In this document: piece after piece, positions 42,866 to 62,816 of the stretch
How the letters are laid out: every line of letters begins with the position of its first letter
Numbering within the stretch: the first letter of the stretch is position 1
Source: Eutypella sp. D-1
Lineage: Eukaryota; Ascomycota; Sordariomycetes; Xylariales; Diatrypaceae
Reading direction: 5' to 3'
Assembly (NCBI GenBank): GCA_023313575.1
Contig: JAJTTP010000008.1
Coordinates: 1,612,001 to 1,676,000 of the forward strand
Length of the DNA: 64,000 bases
The notes under the pieces: model-generated
Databases searched by the model: none
Told to the model about the DNA's origin: nothing
The model's input: the letters and a program-made list of their open reading frames with translations, nothing else
Made by a program: the position numbers and the translations under genes

Positions 42866-44768
42866 TTACGTACGAACTTTACGGAACATTATCTCCTTCG
42901 TGGTATCCGTACCATTGACGACGCCGACGGAGAAGTTCTTGTACGGCTCGCTGACGCCTGGTGGCATCTTGATGTCGTAGTCGAGCAGCAACCGGGCCAT
43001 GATGAGCTTAATCTCGTTGGCGGCGAAGAAGCGGCCCGGGCATGCATGCCGCCCGAACCCGAAGCTCATGTTCTCCTTGGTCACGCTCACGAACTGGTAC
43101 TGCTCCCGGTTCCGGTACCCGATCGGGTCCGGCGCGTCTGTCGTCCGCAGCTTGTAGAATCGGTAGGGGTCGAACTTCTACGGCCGGGTTAGTAAGGCTG
43201 CACTGTCTCATGACAGGAGTATATAGGGGAATAGAGGATGTGCGATCCTGACCTCTGGATTGGGGTAGTGATTCGGATCTTGCAATGACGGCGTATTCGC
43301 AGCCTCGATGAATGAGTGCGCTGGGATAAACGTCCCATCCTTCAGCGTAATCGGCTTGAGTGTGTATCTGCGAAAGCCATCTGCTCTTCCATTAGCAAAG
43401 GCGACTCCTAGATGCATAAAGCATTTGTCGAGAAACATACCCGAGAATGGCGGATTCAGCCGCTGGGACTCCCGCATGACGCTGTCCATGAGCTTCATGT
43501 CGAAGAGCGCCTTTGTGGTCATCACACCGCCGTTGTCTGCGAGGACCCTGCGAACCTCGTCGCGCAGTGCTTCCACGGTTTCGGGCTCGGGCGCAAGGTC
43601 GTAGAGGCTATTTACGGTTGTTACACATGTGAGTTCCCGAACACGAAACCACACGGGCTGGGGTTTGGGACCCACTCACATTCTAGTGGCGGTGAGCGTC
43701 GTGGTATGAATAGCGGCCATGGTGAGCAACAGCTGCATGTGCGTGATATCGGCCACGTCGGTGATACCAGCATCGTCGGCCCTGTTGAGCAACCACTGCA
43801 GAGTGTCGTCGGGAAGCTGCTCGCCCGCCGCCTTGAGACGCTTCCTCTCGTTGATCACGGGGCCTAGAAACTTGGCCGCCTCCCGTCGGTGCTCGCGCAA
43901 CCTGACGACTTCTGGTAGGATGCGGCTCATCACAGGTCTCATCCACCAAGGCCATGCCTTTAGCCGCCCTACCGCTGCTGTGATATCTATCGTGTAGTCC
44001 ACCGCCGCGTGCAGGTACTCAGGTCGGCGGTACAGGTCTGGGCCTAGAAATATGAGCCCTGACACGATCGCTACGATGTTGAGGAGCGGGCGCGTGATAT
44101 TGACGGGTGTCCAGTCCTCGCATGGCGGCAGTTCAGACCCCACCGTACGTTCGACTTCCTCGGTAAGTTTGTCCGTGAGCCTCGCTAAATGTCTGTCAAT
44201 ATTGACAGGTCACACTTGAGGATACACTCGATTACTCACGTAGAGCCCGGATTAAATCCGCCTTGACGGTGTGGTTCACCACGACCGTCCTTGATCTCTC
44301 TGGAAAGACGGCGGTGTAGTCATTTTCGAGTGTCTAGGAGATTAGCGCATGGCCATTGAAGACATGGCTAGGATAGCATACATCCTTGAATGTGTGAAGC
44401 ACATCGATCATATCATCTGGCAGTTGTCTAACTTCGTCGAGGTAGCGTTCCGGAATAATGATGTGGTCCCCTATACCCTAGTCAGTAACCTCGAAAACCA
44501 CCAGTGAATGTGACGAACCAGAGAGTGTAGTCAATCGATAGACTCTATCCTTGAACTGCTGATATCCCTCCTGATAGACCGACGCAGCTGAGAAGAAGTA
44601 GTCCCGCACCCGCTTAGACCGCTTCTGGTCCTCAGCGACGAGAGGGAACTGTCGCAGCTTGGCTTTCTGGAGCAGGTGGGGCCAGAAGAGCGCTGCTCCT
44701 ACGACGACCAGGGTCGCGGCGACAACCGACCACGTGCTGTTAGCGAGTTCGACTTTGCGGGCTTCCAT
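42866..44768 (-). CDS. Cytochrome P450, CYP68/ent-kaurene-oxidase-like, 514 aa
   Basis: Seven minus-strand exons: 44768-44519, 44470-44382, 44333-44240, 44184-43680, 43607-43441, 43380-43253 and 43177-42866 (1545 nt with stop). N-terminal membrane helix (VVAATLVVVGAALFW). The I-helix reads AAIHTTTLTATRI, lacking the common acid-Thr pair, as is usual in CYP68-type enzymes. K-helix ESQR, then KFDPYRFYKLR, and heme loop SFGFGRHACPGRFFA with Cys457. Relatives oxidise terpenoids, indole terpenoids and polyketides; the substrate here is inferred only as a small hydrophobic metabolite. Seven introns-and-exons all stay in phase. Adjacent to another P450, so the two may work in one pathway. Confidence 0.9.
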
Positions 44769-50033: not shown

Positions 50034-50992
50034 TTAGGCCTCGCCCTCAACCAAGCCACCGTCCTCCTCCATCCTAGAAAAATTCGGTTGGTAAGTAATT
50101 TCTTGTTACATATAGCAGTATTCATAATGAACACGTAGATCGGTGCTTACTCCTCAGTCTTGAAGACGTTACCGTCCCTGCGACAGGCGGTTAGCACCTG
50201 ATCGCTCAGGAGGTGGAGCAGAGGCTGGGGTAGTCGGGTGTACTTACTCCTTCTTGAGAGCCTTCTTACCGAGCTCAGAAGCGGAAGACCTGCGGGAACG
50301 ACATTTTAGTATCTGTAGACAGACAGCGAACGATGCTAGAAACATGGGAAGCTTCGGTGGCGAACTTACTTGATCTTGCGGCTGGCCTTGGCCTTCTTGG
50401 CCGCAGGGGTCTCCTCAGAGTCATCGGAGGAATCTGTGTGAAAGTTAGCGTCGGCACTTTTTGAAGTATTAGGCTTAATAATGGGGGATCTTACCGCCGC
50501 CTTTGGCGGCGCTGGGGCGGCCTCGCTTCTTGGTAGGAGTACGCTTGGCCGGAGTCGAGGGGACACTTCCGGCGGCGGAACCACCGGCGCCCGACTGGCG
50601 ACCTTTCTTGAGCTTCTGGAGATGCTGTCTGTGGCACGAGTTATGTTAGCTAACGTCTGCCGAGGCGAAAAGTAGACAGAAACAAAACATTGAAGCATTT
50701 AAAACAGAATAGCACATTAGTAGTCATCGAGAAGTCCTTCATCTGCAGCAATTCATCGGTCATGCCCATATCAAAGGTCAAGCAAGGATATGGGAAGGGT
50801 ATCAGGAAAGGGCAAGGAGCATTACGTGACGGCATATGGGGTATAATGGTAACCACGGCCGTGGATTCGCTCGATGATTTTCTCCCATTGATCGGATGAA
50901 GGGGAGATGACCGCCAGGACTTCGACGAGGAGGTCCGATCGGGTCTTGTCATCCCAGATGGTGCGGGAGGGGGAATCGGTGGAGGGAGCCAT
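50034..50992 (-). CDS. Myb/SANT-like nuclear protein A with AT-hook-like tail, 157 aa
   Basis: Six minus-strand exons: 50992-50826, 50628-50495, 50433-50370, 50289-50248, 50177-50151 and 50073-50034 (474 nt with stop). Residues about 12-66 form a three-helix Myb/SANT-like module: TIWDDKTRSDLLVEVL, then SDQWEKIIERIHGRGYHYTPYAV, then TQHLQKLKKG. The first intron falls inside the last helix (AC|ACAG, phase 2). The tail holds Thr/Pro/Lys-rich KRTPTKKRGRPSAAK, an AT-hook-like core, then an acidic Ser stretch and Lys-rich KKAKASRKIK, and ends EMEEDGGLVEGEA. This fits a small chromatin or DNA-binding protein of the fungal Myb-like class; target and function are unknown. It is the only member of modules A-D with a complete set of downstream exons. 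Confidence 0.85.
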
Positions 50993-51294
50993 GGTGAGGT
51001 AATAAATATGAATAAGATAGGGATGAATTGTAAAAGATAATAATGTAATGGATAATGATGATAGATGATGGAGTTAAGTTGTGTAATGGGAATAATGTTG
51101 AAGAGGTTCAAGGGATGGGCAAGAGGGAAGTGTTCTGTAATCAGGAAAGTTGGGTATGGAAGTGGCGGGGGAAGGCACTTGCCCCAAGAAGAGATCTAGT
51201 TTACGGGAGTGAGGCAGGGTTATGTTGCTTTTTGTGGTACTTGGTAGGGATTGGGACACAGGACAGGATTGTTAGGGAGCCAGAAAGGTCATAC

Positions 51295-51449
51295 CTCAAG
51301 GCCGACACAGAGAAGGTGTACCCCATATCTTTCGTAGCCTTGATGATCTCCTCCCACTGGGGAGGGGATATCTTCAGGGTATCTACGATAGAAATGAGGA
51401 CATCGGTGTGGACGTTGTCGCTCCAGACCATAGTACTGGAGGGAGCCAT
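51295..51449 (-). CDS. Myb/SANT-like domain exon B (partial or alternative first exon)
   Basis: Starts MAPSSTMVWSDNVHTDVLIS and continues PPQWEEIIKATKDMGYTFSVSAL, ending in a phase-2 donor, AG|GTATGA. The first residues MAPS match gene A. The domain lacks its last half-helix unless it is spliced onward. Local acceptors give only a non-conserved tail (for example TLPSCPSLEPLQHYS at the TTACAG near 51128). Joined to the acceptor of gene A (50628) it would read SAL-R-QHLQKLKKG, the expected family sequence, over an intron of about 670 bp. So it is either an alternative first exon of A or a truncated paralog. Confidence 0.6.
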
Positions 51450-51745
51450 GTTTGATCGCGATATTTGTGATTTTTGAACTTGGCTACGAGGTTTCGTCGT
51501 GATGGAAGTAGATAACGATGGCTGAGAAGCAGAAGATGTAGTAGAAGGATGGTTGTGAAAAGGAAGGAGAGTAGATGTTTTAGGCAGAAGTGGAAGTGTT
51601 AAAGTAGTTGCTGGGGAAAGATGTCACTGGGGAGGTTGGGGTTGTTGTAGATGGCACTCGCGCAAAACAAAACAACAGTGGCCCCGCAGTATATGGCACC
51701 GAGTAGGAAATGGTGTTAGAGAAGTGAAGGACAAGTACTATATAC

Positions 51746-51918
51746 CTCAAAGCATTCTGGTTGACATTGTGACCCTGGGACTGGAGCGCACGCAAGAGCT
51801 CAGCAGACTGCTCCGGGGTCAGCTTGATGACCTCCATGCCCCAGAGAATCCTGAGAATCTCGGCATCGATCTCCGAGGTCCATTTCATGGTGGGCGTCTG
51901 AGTAGACATCATGGGCAT
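51746..51918 (-). CDS. Myb/SANT-like domain exon C (partial or alternative first exon)
   Basis: Starts MPMMSTQTPTMKWTSEIDAE, continues LRILWGMEVIKLTPEQSAEL and LRALQSQGHNVNQNAL, and ends in a phase-2 donor, AG|GTATAT. It has the same Trp-helix-helix plan as A, B, D and E. No nearby exon supplies the QHLQ helix end. Reading through the donor gives a low-complexity tail to a stop at 51580. Joined to the A acceptor it would read NAL-R-QHLQKLKKG (intron about 1.1 kb). Confidence 0.6.
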
Positions 51919-52426
51919 GTTTTCTGATTGGAGAGCGGAGGGAAGTGTGGGCGTAGCATAGACTGGTAGGCGGTCCTACTGAGGAAGTGTGGTGATGTAA
52001 GATGTTGATGATGGTGTTGGAAGAGAAATTGAAAAAAGATAGAATGATGATATGATGAGAGAGAGAAGTGAAAAAGTTTGTGTTGTGCTGATGGAGGGGG
52101 GATTCTATTTGCGGAGAGAGTTTCAAGTCTGGGTCAAAAGAAACAAACTGGGGGCCAGAGGGAAAGGGGAAGAAGCCCCACATATGTTCGACGATGTCAT
52201 AATTATAGGCACACCATACCTAGGTACCAGAAACACAGCAGCAATGTGGAAGGAACCCAGCAGCTGATTCTTGGTCACTCAAGTACAGGGATACTTCCCT
52301 TGTCACTGATGTCAAGTCAAGGTCAGGCCCTTGATACTTATCTGATAGCAGCCTTGGGTGGACCAATGGCAACATCACAGCAATACCAAAAAACACATGT
52401 AGGTAGACAAAGTGAAAAGGACTTAC

Positions 52427-52590
52427 CGAACATTCTCCCAGTTGGTGTCGTAGCCGAGAGCCTTCATGGCTTCCATGATCTTCTTCTGGTGCACAAGGTC
52501 AATGGGCTGGTGTGCAGTAAACAGGGCGACAGCAACGTCCTTGAGGACGTCAGCACTGTCCCAATTGACAGAGGTAGCTCGGCGAGACAT
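52427..52590 (-). CDS. Myb/SANT-like domain exon D (partial or alternative first exon)
   Basis: Starts MSRRATSVNWDSADVLKDVA, continues ALFTAHQPIDLVHQKKIMEA and MKALGYDTNWENV, and ends in a strong phase-2 donor, CG|GTAAGT. The Trp and the GYDTN turn align with A, B, C and E. The strong donor argues that splicing really happens here, but no local acceptor restores the helix; one gives an immediate stop. Joined to the A acceptor it would read ENV-R-QHLQKLKKG (intron about 1.8 kb, long for this genome). Confidence 0.6.
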
Positions 52591-54563
52591 GATAACGATC
52601 CTGGTCCTTGGGGTAGGAGTAGGCTTGGGCTTTATCGCCTTGCTATGTCAATGTGGAATCACAAGAGTTAGTAGCAGTTATGGTATAGGGGACAAAGAAG
52701 TGACTGTTAACGTTATGGTGTATGTGCGTGCACGTGTATTTGTGTAGGTAAGTGACGTGATGTGCAAGTGAGACTTTGGACTAGTAACAGAGGGTCAAGG
52801 CGGAATCTTTTGGAGTAAATAGGCACAATGGAGAAGAGTTGTTATATGGGTGGAGAGGAGGATATCATGGAATGATGATTAACATCTTTGGAGAGCAGGA
52901 CCAAGGTTGAGGCGTGTTTTGGGGAAGTAGGTTTGGTCATAACAGATCTTAACAAGAAGTAATTGGGGCACTTGGTTGGATATTTATTGGCCGTTACAAG
53001 AATCTCTCTCTCCCTCTGCGTGTGTGTGAAGATTGGTGTGGTTGAAGGAGATGGAATAGGTGTACATGGACGTGGGCTAAAATTTCTCAAGTGGTGACAT
53101 ACCGTATTGTAATTGTCACCTCCGGACAGCCTGGAATATGGGTACGCGCAGGGGGCAGCGACTCAGGCCAGCGCGAGGGCGAGGGTTGCAATGATGAAGA
53201 GGAGCTGTAGTACAGGAAGAAAGAAGAAAGGTGGCTGTAGTAAGAAGACCTGTCAGGTGGATGGGGAGAGAACTTTGGAAGAGAAAGTGTGTGCTGTGTT
53301 GGTGAATTTGGGTACACAACCAGAGAAATCTGAAAGTGACTGGGGAGATTGTGGACTGGGTAGGTGAATGCAAGCCAGGGCTGTCATGGTTTTGGAGCAG
53401 AAACCAACAGAAACATGGAATTAACTTATGGATCCGCTTATATGGCGGCTGCGCAGGTGTTGGTACTATGTATACTTATGCTCAAGTAAACTGAGACTCT
53501 CTTGCCTTGTCTGCATTGGCCACTTGGATGCTCTGCCTTGCTTGGCCCTGAGTGTTATTAGAATTTGGTGGACAGAAGGTATTGCTTGACGCTGGCTATA
53601 CGTCCTTGTACGTACGCTATAGCGTATGGCTCCCCCCCAAAACACATAATATCACGAGGGAGGGCAGGCTGGAATTCCTCCTTGCCACATGGAAAATAGG
53701 AGAAGGGAAATGTACCAAGTAGATACCTCTAGGGTTTCTCAGGAGAACTCATCTAAATTTCGATTACCTATCCTAATTGATCCGCAGAGCGGTGGTTGAG
53801 GCGTAGATTGCGCTACATCGTCTAGACGTGACCGTCGGTTTCGACTGAACAGCTATTAATGAAGCGGGCTTCGGCAGGAAGAGATCAATCAGTCAGATCA
53901 TGCGCATATTCCTACCGCAAAATCATCTACGTAGTAGGAAAGCTCGTCAGTTCAATACGTAAGTGCCTTCAAACTGACGACTCGCTTGGTACGGTTTACT
54001 GGTAGGAGTCAGTAGACTAGGTTCAGAAGGGTACGTTACACACCAGGAGGACCAGCACCGAAATATCTTGCGAGAATAGGATAAGCCTCCGGGTTGGGAA
54101 ATAGAATACGATGGGATTCGTCGGGGATATTATCAACGCCGTAACTGGATCTAGTGAGTAGCATGTATTCCTTGCCCGACTGACGCCTGCGCCGTGTGCT
54201 TTTTCTTCTCCTCGAAATTCCGACCGCCTCGAATAAAACTCCGACCAACTAAATCAACGCCAAACGATATTGTAAAATGTGTTGTACAAAAATGTATTGA
54301 TATACGACTGTGTCAATCTCACGCCAGCCGTCTTTCATGAGGGCGGCGGAGTGACGGCTTAGGCGAGTAGTTGTATTCCAGTGCGGCGGCTCGCTCGAGG
54401 CTTTAATAAGGAGAGCGTAGGCCGTCTTGGCGCAGTGGGTCTCGCGGATCACTCACTATTAGATCGGTGTTGTGGTAGTCTGGTGTCATGCCTCATCGTA
54501 GAACCTATCGATAGTTAGCATTCGACTCTATAGAAAGCTGCCGCAACATGTCCTAGGAATTGC
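52591..54563. other. Intergenic region between Myb modules D and E
   Basis: 2 kb. The part next to D (52700-53400) is pyrimidine-rich on the minus strand and looks like promoter or 5' UTR. I searched it for a further domain exon (Met, then Trp after about 10 residues) and found none. The part near E (53400-54560) has no recognisable gene. Confidence 0.5.
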
Positions 54564-55845
54564 TCACTCGGCTGCACTGAAATTGTCTACAGGGTCGGCT
54601 AATCCGTCCGCTGCTAAAGCCAGGACGGCCTCGTCTTCATTAGATGGTTGGCCATCATCATTCTGCTCCTGTCCTTGCTCTGGTCTCAGGCCTAGCTCTA
54701 GTTCTGGTTGCGGTTGTGGCTGTGGCTCCGGTTGTGGGTTTGGTACCGATGCTTCACGTTTTTGTCGTTTGGCAGGATGGCCTTGGAGATCGTCTTCATC
54801 TACATCCTCAATCACGCGATGACTTGAACCAAATGCGTCTGGCTCTTGCGGTGCGGCAGCAGCAGCAGCTGGCGCGGAAGTTGGTATAGGTATGGCTACA
54901 GGCATAGGCGTTCCGATGGTCAATCCCTCCATGCTCCGCTGAGCATCTGGGGTACGCGGGGGCATAGGTGCAGGTGTTGGTGTTCCCGCTGGCCTACGAC
55001 CAGGAGTGATGGGGGCCGCAGAGCTGATGGGAGGCGCAGAGACTGGATGTTCTGCAGGCGGCGCATGGACTGCAAGAGACGTAGCAGAGCTAGGGGGTGA
55101 GCTGGTGACAGGGAGTGGATGCTTTCTCGGACGACCACGTCCCGGGCCCGGCCTACGGGTGATGGGGTTCTCAGCCGGGTCACCCTTGCGGGGACTATCT
55201 CCTACGGTACCATTGGGTTCGGTCTTGTGCTGGGACCTTCGCAGGCCCTGGAAGTGTTGGCTGTCGTTTTGTCAGACTTATAGTTATATTAGACCGCATG
55301 AGGAGCGCATGTAACCACGGGGACATAGAACGCAAAACACTCCGGGGGCGCGCTTGAGCCCCAGCTACATATGCTATAGATTGACAAGGTTCTATCCCCA
55401 CTGGGGATATTTTTAATTCAAATTCTAACGCGATGTACAGGCGAAAGTATACTATATATAAATGTATGCCGCCAGTAATGAGAGTTTACGAAGAGAGACT
55501 ATCAAAGTTACCCACTTAGGTACACATATAGGAAGGACTCGGCACAAGGTAAGAACAGAGTAGAAGTAGCAAGTAAAGGAATGATACAAAGGAATGGTGC
55601 ATTCGACGTCACAATTATAGGGGGAAAAAGGAAAGGCCTTGGAGGTAGGTCGAAGTAAGGAAGAAAGATGGCATCAAGAGCTATTCTACTCACCGGCAAC
55701 CCTCATTGGTGAAGCCGTAGCCTAAAGTTCGCATGTGATTGCCGATCGTGGTCCAGTCAGAGCCGCTTATGATGCCAATGTTCTTGACGGAAAGAATAGT
55801 GAAGAAAAGGTCCTTATCGGCCCTATCGTTCCAATTCTTATTCAT
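54564..55845 (-). CDS. Myb/SANT-like nuclear protein E with AT-hook, 282 aa
   Basis: Exons 55845-55694 and 55260-54564 (849 nt with stop; intron 433 bp). The domain covers about residues 1-58: MNKNWNDRADKDLFFTILS, SDWTTIGNHMRTLGYGFTN, EGCRQHFQGLRR. The intron cuts the last helix in phase 2 (CG|CCAACAC), exactly as in A. The second exon encodes a real AT-hook (GPGRGRPRKHP), a long Pro/Ala/Thr/Ser-rich linker, a basic AKRQKREA patch and a Gln/Pro/Glu-rich acidic tail. It is probably a chromatin-binding or transcription factor; the target is unknown. Its complete structure shows what B, C and D lack. Confidence 0.85.
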
Positions 55846-58754: not shown

Positions 58755-59681
58755 ATGTCCGCAAATGCAGATAGTGCCATGACAAGGTTCCTGTTCGCTA
58801 TACTGCAACAGAAGAATCTAAAGGATGTGAGTCGAGTCAAGACCTCTCGGGAAAGATTGTTGTAGATTCGAAAGTGTCTGACTTTTCCCAAGATCGACTG
58901 GAACCAAGTCGCTCGCAACCCGGTGCTATCTCAGGAGATCACCAACGGCCATGCTGCTCGCATGAGATATTCCAGATTTCGCTCGACCATACTAGGACTG
59001 GAACCTATGAGGCGGAACCGGACGACCGCGCCGAAGTCCCGAGTGACGAAGTCCAAGAAAGAGCCGAAGGCGAAAAAGAACGACAAGGCGAAGGCTGAAC
59101 CTAGTACCAGCTCAACGCCCTCGCCCCCGCCCCCGCCCCTGCCCAAGTCGCGCGAGACGGCGCCGTCTCCCACACCATCAGCACCATCGGCACCATTGCC
59201 TACGCTGAGAGTCAAACAGGAAGTCTCACACCACGGCCTTGACGGTGTCTGGGAAACCCGTCTTACGCCGAGACTCACCCCAGGCCCGGTACCACCTCCC
59301 ATGTCAGCTCCCGCGCCGACTCCAAGCATGAGCGCCACACCTCTAACGATCCAGCCGCGGCTGCTCACGCCATGTAGCGAAGCAGACGTGTTTAGCCCTC
59401 TGAGTGCAAGCCCCGCCAGCGATATGATCAACATGCCGTATGACTACTCGCCGCTTCCCGCCCATGGCCAGGCCTGGCATCAACCCATGTCATACTCCTC
59501 GCCCGCAAATTCATATCCTTTCAACGACTTTCCGATGTCTTGCGATCATCAACATCACCCTGACAACTTCGCGTTGCTGAATAAGTCGATCGAGGACGAT
59601 GGGGAGCACTGCGCTGGTGTAAAGCAGGAGAGGTGGGATGACTGTCTTGATGTGAAGCAGGAGTGGGACTACTACCCTTAA
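58755..59681 (+). CDS. Myb-like DNA-binding protein F with three SUMO-type motifs, 286 aa
   Basis: Exons 58755-58826 and 58893-59681 (intron 66 bp, phase 0; 861 nt with stop). The N-terminal module (about residues 8-62) is of the fungal Myb-like kind: RFLFAILQQKNLKDIDWNQVA, then ITNGHAARMRYSRFRSTILG. A Lys-rich stretch follows (TKSKKEPKAKKNDKAK), a probable nuclear signal, then a Pro/Ser/Thr-rich region. VKQE, a perfect sumoylation consensus (hydrophobic-Lys-x-Glu), occurs three times: in RVKQEVSHH, GVKQERWDD and, at the very end, DVKQEWDYYP. It looks like a regulated transcription factor. The start at 58755 is set by the conserved domain. Confidence 0.87.
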
Positions 59682-62303: not shown

Positions 62304-62816
62304 ATGGTCCCCAAGACTCCCAAAGCCGATACCGATGGCAAGCCCTCCACTGCCGCTCTGAATGAGCGCGAGGGCAAGATGATCTCCTTCGTTCTGAAGT
62401 CACTCCCTGCGTCCATCAAGACCTCCATCGACTTTAAGGCGTTCGCAATGGAGTTCGGCCAGAAGGACTCCAGAGCTGCCCAGGATTCCTTCCGCTACCT
62501 CTGCAAGAAATACGGTTGGTTCGAGGGCAACGTATGTACTAACTACTTGTTTTCTTTCTCTGACGTCTACTAACCGAAAGCTTAGGGTGCTACTTGCGCA
62601 ACTCCATCTACGCCTACTAACAAGAAGGCGATGGCCAAGCCCACTCCTACCAAGAGAGCCGCCAACAATGATGACGGTGTAGTCGACGAGAGTCCCACCA
62701 AGAAGAAGCGTACGACCAGGCCCAAGAAGGCTGCTTCAGAGAAGGAGGCCACTCTCAGAATGGAGGACTTGGACCCGGCGGACATTGATATGGATCTGGC
62801 ACAAGGCTTGGCCTAA
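62304..62816 (+). CDS. Myb-like nuclear protein G, 152 aa
   Basis: Exons 62304-62531 and 62586-62816 (intron 54 bp, phase 0; 459 nt with stop). The module at about residues 22-75 reads EGKMISFVLKSLPASIKTSI, then DFKAFAMEFGQKDSRAAQDS and FRYLCKKYGW, related to F and H in helix plan. The second exon is Lys/Thr/Pro-rich (PTKKKRTTRPKKAASEKEA), likely a nuclear signal and DNA-contacting tail, and ends in an acidic helix (MEDLDPADIDMDLAQGLA) that could act as a transactivation or partner-binding segment. Function unknown. Confidence 0.83.

Follow-up and report, generated by a model that had tools for sequence, protein, structure and literature searches.

We analyzed a 64,000-nt stretch of the genome of Eutypella sp. 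D-1 (contig JAJTTP010000008.1, positions 1,612,001 to 1,676,000), hereafter the window, in whose coordinates all positions below are given. On its minus strand, four short exons, D, C, B and A (the heads), stand in tandem upstream of a single set of downstream exons (the tail). Judged from the sequence, we put the probability at roughly 0.8 that this locus is a multiple-variable-first-exon array, in which D, C, B and A share one tail. Each head would have its own promoter and start codon, and would encode helices 1 and 2 and the beginning of helix 3 of a small Myb-type DNA-binding domain. The promoter that fires would decide the head, its exon coming first in the transcript, so that the phase-2 donor of this exon would pair with its one suitable acceptor, at 50628, and the later heads would leave with the intron. 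The constant exon would then add QHLQKLKKG, the rest of helix 3, and a basic and acidic tail. The expected outcome is four proteins with different DNA-reading heads, perhaps of differing specificity, on one tail. Alternative first exons had already been proposed in the first-pass annotation of this DNA, and the proposal is now supported by nucleotide skew before all four heads, by a conserved order of heads and by tail joins in the gene models of relatives.

Layout of the proposed array and its predicted splice joins

The features of the array are as follows, in the direction of transcription; head classes are those of the tree described below, and C-skew is the excess of C over G on the minus strand in 100-base bins.

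52591..53300, minus strand: putative promoter/5' region of D; C-skew 0.22-0.66, mostly 0.40 to 0.66 over 700 bases
52427..52590, minus strand: candidate variable first exon D, distal class I/II head, MSRRATSVNW...NWENV plus CG, donor GTAAGT; from database-only profile and clade
51919..52118, minus strand: putative promoter/5' region of C; C-skew peak 0.95
51746..51918, minus strand: candidate variable first exon C, class III head, split-codon AG, donor GTATAT; from database-only profile and tree
51450..51649, minus strand: putative promoter/5' region of B; C-skew peak 0.81
51295..51449, minus strand: candidate variable first exon B, class III head, split-codon AG, donor GTATGA; from database-only profile and tree
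50993..51192, minus strand: putative promoter/5' region of A; C-skew peak 1.00
50826..50992, minus strand: candidate variable first exon A, class IV head, split-codon AC, donor GTAATG; from database-only profile and tree
50629..50660, minus strand: 3' splice region of the constant exon, with a GCTAAC branch-like site and a cacag acceptor; from sequence
50495..50628, minus strand: constant exon 1, QHLQKLKKG (helix 3 remainder, placed by homology) and a basic stretch with an RGRP core
50433-50370, 50289-50248, 50177-50151 and 50073-50034, minus strand: remaining constant exons, acidic/basic tail to the stop; borders predicted from sequence

One tail is thus preceded by tandem homologous heads on the same strand and with the same donor phase. 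The coordinates, ATG starts and equivalent phase-2 donors given for the heads in the first-pass annotation proved exact to the base. Each head encodes about 50-58 codons and ends with two split-codon bases before GT (CG, AG, AG and AC in D, C, B and A, respectively). The donor of D is the most consensus-like and that of A the least, and a stronger D donor would help the distal donor to compete. The constant acceptor at 50628 reads cacag followed by ACAGCATCTCCAG, GCTAAC lies some 20 nt ahead of it, and the RGRP core of constant exon 1 is presumably AT-hook-like.

All AG dinucleotides from 40 nt past each donor to position 50400 were scanned as acceptors (82, 49, 33 and 24 sites for D, C, B and A, respectively). 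For all four donors, the sole site giving a QHLQ-like string within the first eight residues was 50628; the earlier claim of a single completing exon therefore holds, no other scanned AG supplying QHLQ. Joined to this acceptor, D, C, B and A yield open frames of 157, 160, 154 and 158 codons including the stop. The junction is predicted to fall inside helix 3 in two AlphaFold models.

Several observations bear on whether the heads are coding. Codon log-odds, with 12 long open frames from the window and its flank as the training set (not verified genes), preferred the assigned frame in all four heads (12.9 to 20.8 bits), the other five frames scoring at most 9.8 bits and the inter-exon stretches at most 3.7. 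A profile hidden Markov model (HMM) was built from 182 domains of 110 database proteins, with window sequence and E-type domains (those of a sister gene, E, described below) left out, and run against 2049 six-frame pieces of the window and 20 kb beyond. It recovered A (E value 6.6e-18), B (2.4e-14), E (5e-9), C (1.7e-7) and D (1.8e-6); the next-best piece had an E value of 2.6 and the best reversed-sequence piece 3.5. The pairwise protein identity of the heads is 13-35% with every frame open, and the low identity indicates that the duplications are old. In the whole genome (48.5 Mb, 72 contigs), queries with A plus the tail start and with B returned this locus alone, save for one match to the tail part on another contig (E value 0.075).

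The description of the heads as Myb-like stood in part. It agrees with the wider family and with structure prediction; A-D joined to the tail start had no Pfam Myb/SANT match, either above the gathering score or even at E <= 10, and the label therefore rests on that family and the predicted structure. Myb_DNA-bind_4 matched weakly in two of the 14 members of one set of homologues (A4; best E value 0.0068). Likeness to plant GARP/SHAQKYF-type Myb domains (ARR1, LUX, PHR1) has sequence support below threshold: TIGR01557 gave 11 bits (E value 0.4) against a cut-off of 29.3 bits in one of 28 relatives scanned, a set separate from the window exons, and an ARR10 match had an E value of 1.5. The structure model of P0008 gave no Myb match.

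Base composition points to where transcripts may begin. A peak of C-over-G skew 50-100 bp upstream of start codons is described for N. crassa, M. grisea and other filamentous fungi in a passage of PMC555766. Over the 200 bases before D, C, B and A, the skew is 0.42, 0.73, 0.68 and 0.72, respectively. It falls to 0.15 and 0.02 inside D, to -0.03 in mid-C and to 0.08 in mid-B, stays moderate inside A (0.41, 0.22), and is merely 0.07-0.14 just before the constant exon. As the C-skew precedes the heads and not the constant exon, each head looks like a transcript start in its base composition, whereas the tail does not; such evidence is indirect. As controls, the 200-base skew before the ATGs of E and three other neighbouring genes is 0.23, 0.28, 0.48 and 0.71, and across the window the 200-base skew has a standard deviation of 0.20 and exceeds 0.4 in magnitude at 6% of positions.

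Heads and tails in related fungi

Homologues were collected by a search with the A isoform, which returned one good match, and by two profile searches, from which the best 120 of 312 matches and the best 120 of 122 were taken, giving 223 proteins. The near-identical tails with different heads described below come from other Sordariomycetes, in database gene models, which are predictions. Of the 223 proteins, 115 have a QH[LI]QKL tail 50 or more residues long. Comparison of 6539 tail pairs gave 43 with an identity of 80% or more; the heads are less than 50% identical in 20 of these and similar in the other 23. Seventeen of the 20 are clean cases of the same tail with different heads, five of them within one named species (three in P. 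oryzae, one in P. grisea and one in Rhypophila decipiens). Three models from Pyricularia oryzae have an identical tail and a different head each, and P. grisea and R. decipiens each have two heads on a near-identical tail. Between Neurospora crassa P0173 and N. intermedia P0128, the tail is 99% and the head 11% identical. A further model, P0122 of P. grisea, combines five heads with a single tail, and these heads therefore belong to one locus. A distal head is joined straight to the tail in P0160, P0190 and P0091. When relatives were checked at the protein level for loss of donors or frames, the idea of an array was not refuted, as the models of Xylaria, Monosporascus, Pyricularia, Neurospora, Podospora, Colletotrichum and others again show heads in order ahead of a single QHLQ tail.

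A tree was built from 141 domains; of the 38 multi-head sequences, P0175 was left out, and a length filter removed partial heads of P0132 and P0137. Four clades were resolved, namely I/II (distal; support 0.75), III (0.78), IV (0.93) and V (proximal; 0.85). Of the window heads, D belongs to I/II, A to IV, and both C and B to III; within III, C groups with the third heads of Monosporascus, and B with the Monosporascus fourth head (support 0.895). Across 37 multi-head models, the order I/II, III, IV, V was kept by 106 head pairs, with 22 ties and one reversal. Shuffling the labels within models in 2000 trials gave a mean of 53.6 reversed pairs and a minimum of 34, figures that overstate the strength of the result because related species are not independent. 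The conserved order was seen in Xylaria and Monosporascus, in Pyricularia, in Neurospora and Podospora, and in one Colletotrichum. Every one of the four clades includes heads that models join to the tail (26 heads of class V, 18 of IV, 10 of III and four of I/II among the models in the tree).

Two single-head relatives, P0203 (Friedmanniomyces) and P0035 (Glarea), both of genera that we take to lie outside the Sordariomycetes, may show the state before the array. Two short environmental ENA sequences, P0002 and P0045, nearly match the constant region (in another frame) and exon A (96% identical), respectively; a close relative of this fungus has therefore already been sequenced.

Alternative readings of the locus

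A number of observations weigh against an array of alternative first exons. The intron to the constant exon would span 1798 nt from D, 1117 nt from C and 666 nt from B. Introns of 666-1798 nt are long for a filamentous fungus, and the one from D is the chief mechanical worry. In a scan for splicing from head to head, which covered acceptors from 200 nt before the target exon to 44 nt into it, three AG sites in each case would let D or C splice into B in frame. No promoter motif common to the four heads was found, and the skew before the ATG of gene E is weak. In the comparative data, many of the predicted models string several heads into one protein, the one reversed head pair occurs in Cytospora P0100, and two tail-joined class members are doubtful (Friedmanniomyces P0203 in III and the same P0100 in I/II). 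Three of the 20 pairs with different heads were dropped, P0152/P0155 because one side carries intron residues, and P0091/P0201 and P0141/P0211 because a head is set against intron-derived residues. Among the matches listed, no spliced alternative-head isoform was recognized in read-assembly or metagenome proteins; those inspected look genomic, and several translate an intron (e.g., P0179, P0180 and P0187).

The same data allow other readings to be weighed. The tandem copies might be duplicated first exons whose second exons are gone, with B, C and D now decaying or being transcribed without use, and D, C and B indeed each have no completing exon of their own in the window. We regard this as improbable: heads so old still have open, coding-like frames, every one of them is found by a profile made from database proteins only, their class order is kept across genera, and models from other species join heads of every class to the tail. 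It is also very unlikely that the locus encodes one multi-headed protein with the heads spliced in series as internal exons, as the five heads of P0122 would have it. The 37 models with more than one classified head and the in-frame sites from D and C into B agree with such a protein, but within the scanned range C lacks a phase-compatible, stop-free acceptor for D, and A lacks one for every other head. Furthermore, by eye the linkers in these models resemble translated 5' leader, and single-head models with an identical tail exist (P0160 and P0015).

Little credence can likewise be given to separate short genes, in which each head would take a local ending through a retained intron or a local acceptor and yield a truncated peptide or an upstream reading frame regulating A. 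The start-site-like skew before each head would suit them, as would the stops that D and A meet directly past the donor when read unspliced (CGG TAA and ACG TAA). However, no scanned local acceptor gives a QHLQ-like string, so helix 3 would be cut, and in the models heads of different classes end at matching positions, a regularity not needed by stand-alone peptides. Finally, trans-splicing or read-through chimeras could join heads to the tail and spare the cell cis introns of up to 1798 nt, but this is the most far-fetched of the alternatives, since the heads lie in order, on the same strand and just upstream of the tail (here and, by model order, elsewhere), as cis splicing requires.

Neighbouring genes, significance and known systems

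54564..55845, minus strand (exons 55845-55694 and 55260-54564): sister gene E, with the same head type, the same split codon and its own tail with RGRP

The join of E had been cited in the first-pass annotation as a parallel to that of the array, and this is borne out: the 433-nt first intron of E and the array junction share their codon position, with the same phase-2 split (R before QHFQ in E). The head of E (MNKNWNDRADKDLFFTILSVKNIG...) is very similar across the Sordariomycete matches listed, whose entries look unnamed or are called 'Myb-like', and many of the matches from the larger profile search are E orthologues: the E-type pattern occurs, among the matches listed, in 93 of the 121 proteins then collected. 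The closest collected protein is Eutypa lata P0030 (51% over 286 positions). The array and E bear neighbouring gene numbers in X. hypoxylon (g721/g722) and Apodospora (606074/606076), and their adjacency therefore seems conserved in relatives; the P0134 model runs from an E-type protein directly into an array.

Three further small genes of DNA-binding type lie near the array, all on the plus strand, at 58755-59681, at 62304-62816 and from 63636 to past the window end. The three matches of Pfam Myb_DNA-bind_8 (PF22980) in the genome (E <= 10), one of them over the cut-off, all fall in the first and the last of these, and the gene at 62304-62816 was assigned by eye alone. There may thus be a local cluster of small DNA-binding genes. 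Downstream of the array, the last long open frame of a plus-strand gene at 46425-48858 matches TFR_dimer (E value 5.4e-12); this gene is presumably an M28-type glutamate carboxypeptidase. On the minus strand, 43676-44209 has a weak cytochrome P450 match (E value 0.0027), under the curated cut-off.

As to its meaning, we tentatively suggest, at somewhat less than even odds, that the locus encodes a head-swapping transcription or chromatin factor found across Sordariomycetes, in which regulated promoter choice would retarget the same tail, the constant exon carrying the DNA-contacting part of the recognition helix. Literature searches found no fungal variable-first-exon array, and this one would be the first. 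We know of no earlier case anywhere of promoter choice rewiring DNA specificity through a split recognition helix. Variable-first-exon arrays are best known in vertebrates, where they diversify cell-surface proteins and enzymes; one in compact fungal genomes, its head order shared by distant genera, would mean that the design has also arisen outside animals and can diversify DNA recognition. It would also explain why annotation is inconsistent even within one species, showing one head, another, or several strung together. Neurospora crassa and other laboratory fungi could then serve as convenient genetic systems in which to study promoter choice and long-range splice-site pairing.

Among known systems, the clustered protocadherins (Pcdh alpha and gamma) have the same plan as the array. 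A single head is chosen there by its promoter, in a stochastic and CTCF-based manner. However, they are cell-surface cadherins, with the whole ectodomain in the variable exon. In fungi, portions of PMC9604717 and PMC11121469 describe Fusarium ZEB2 and Trichoderma Xlr2, in which isoform choice alters the DNA-binding part of a transcription factor; as far as those portions go, the domain is present or absent there, through truncation or a microexon, and there is no array of interchangeable heads. A section of PMC1885805 describes tandem variable first exons with distinct promoters in Ugt1 and Gcnt2, separately spliced to common constant exons, and terms the organization of Ugt1, Gcnt2 and Ugt2a vertebrate-specific. 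As set out in that section, Ugt1 and Gcnt2 resemble the array in combining variable first exons with constant ones, although they encode enzymes, whereas the product here would be a fungal nuclear-type protein whose domain is itself split at the junction. The Ugt1 cluster is as close an analogue of the array as the protocadherins.
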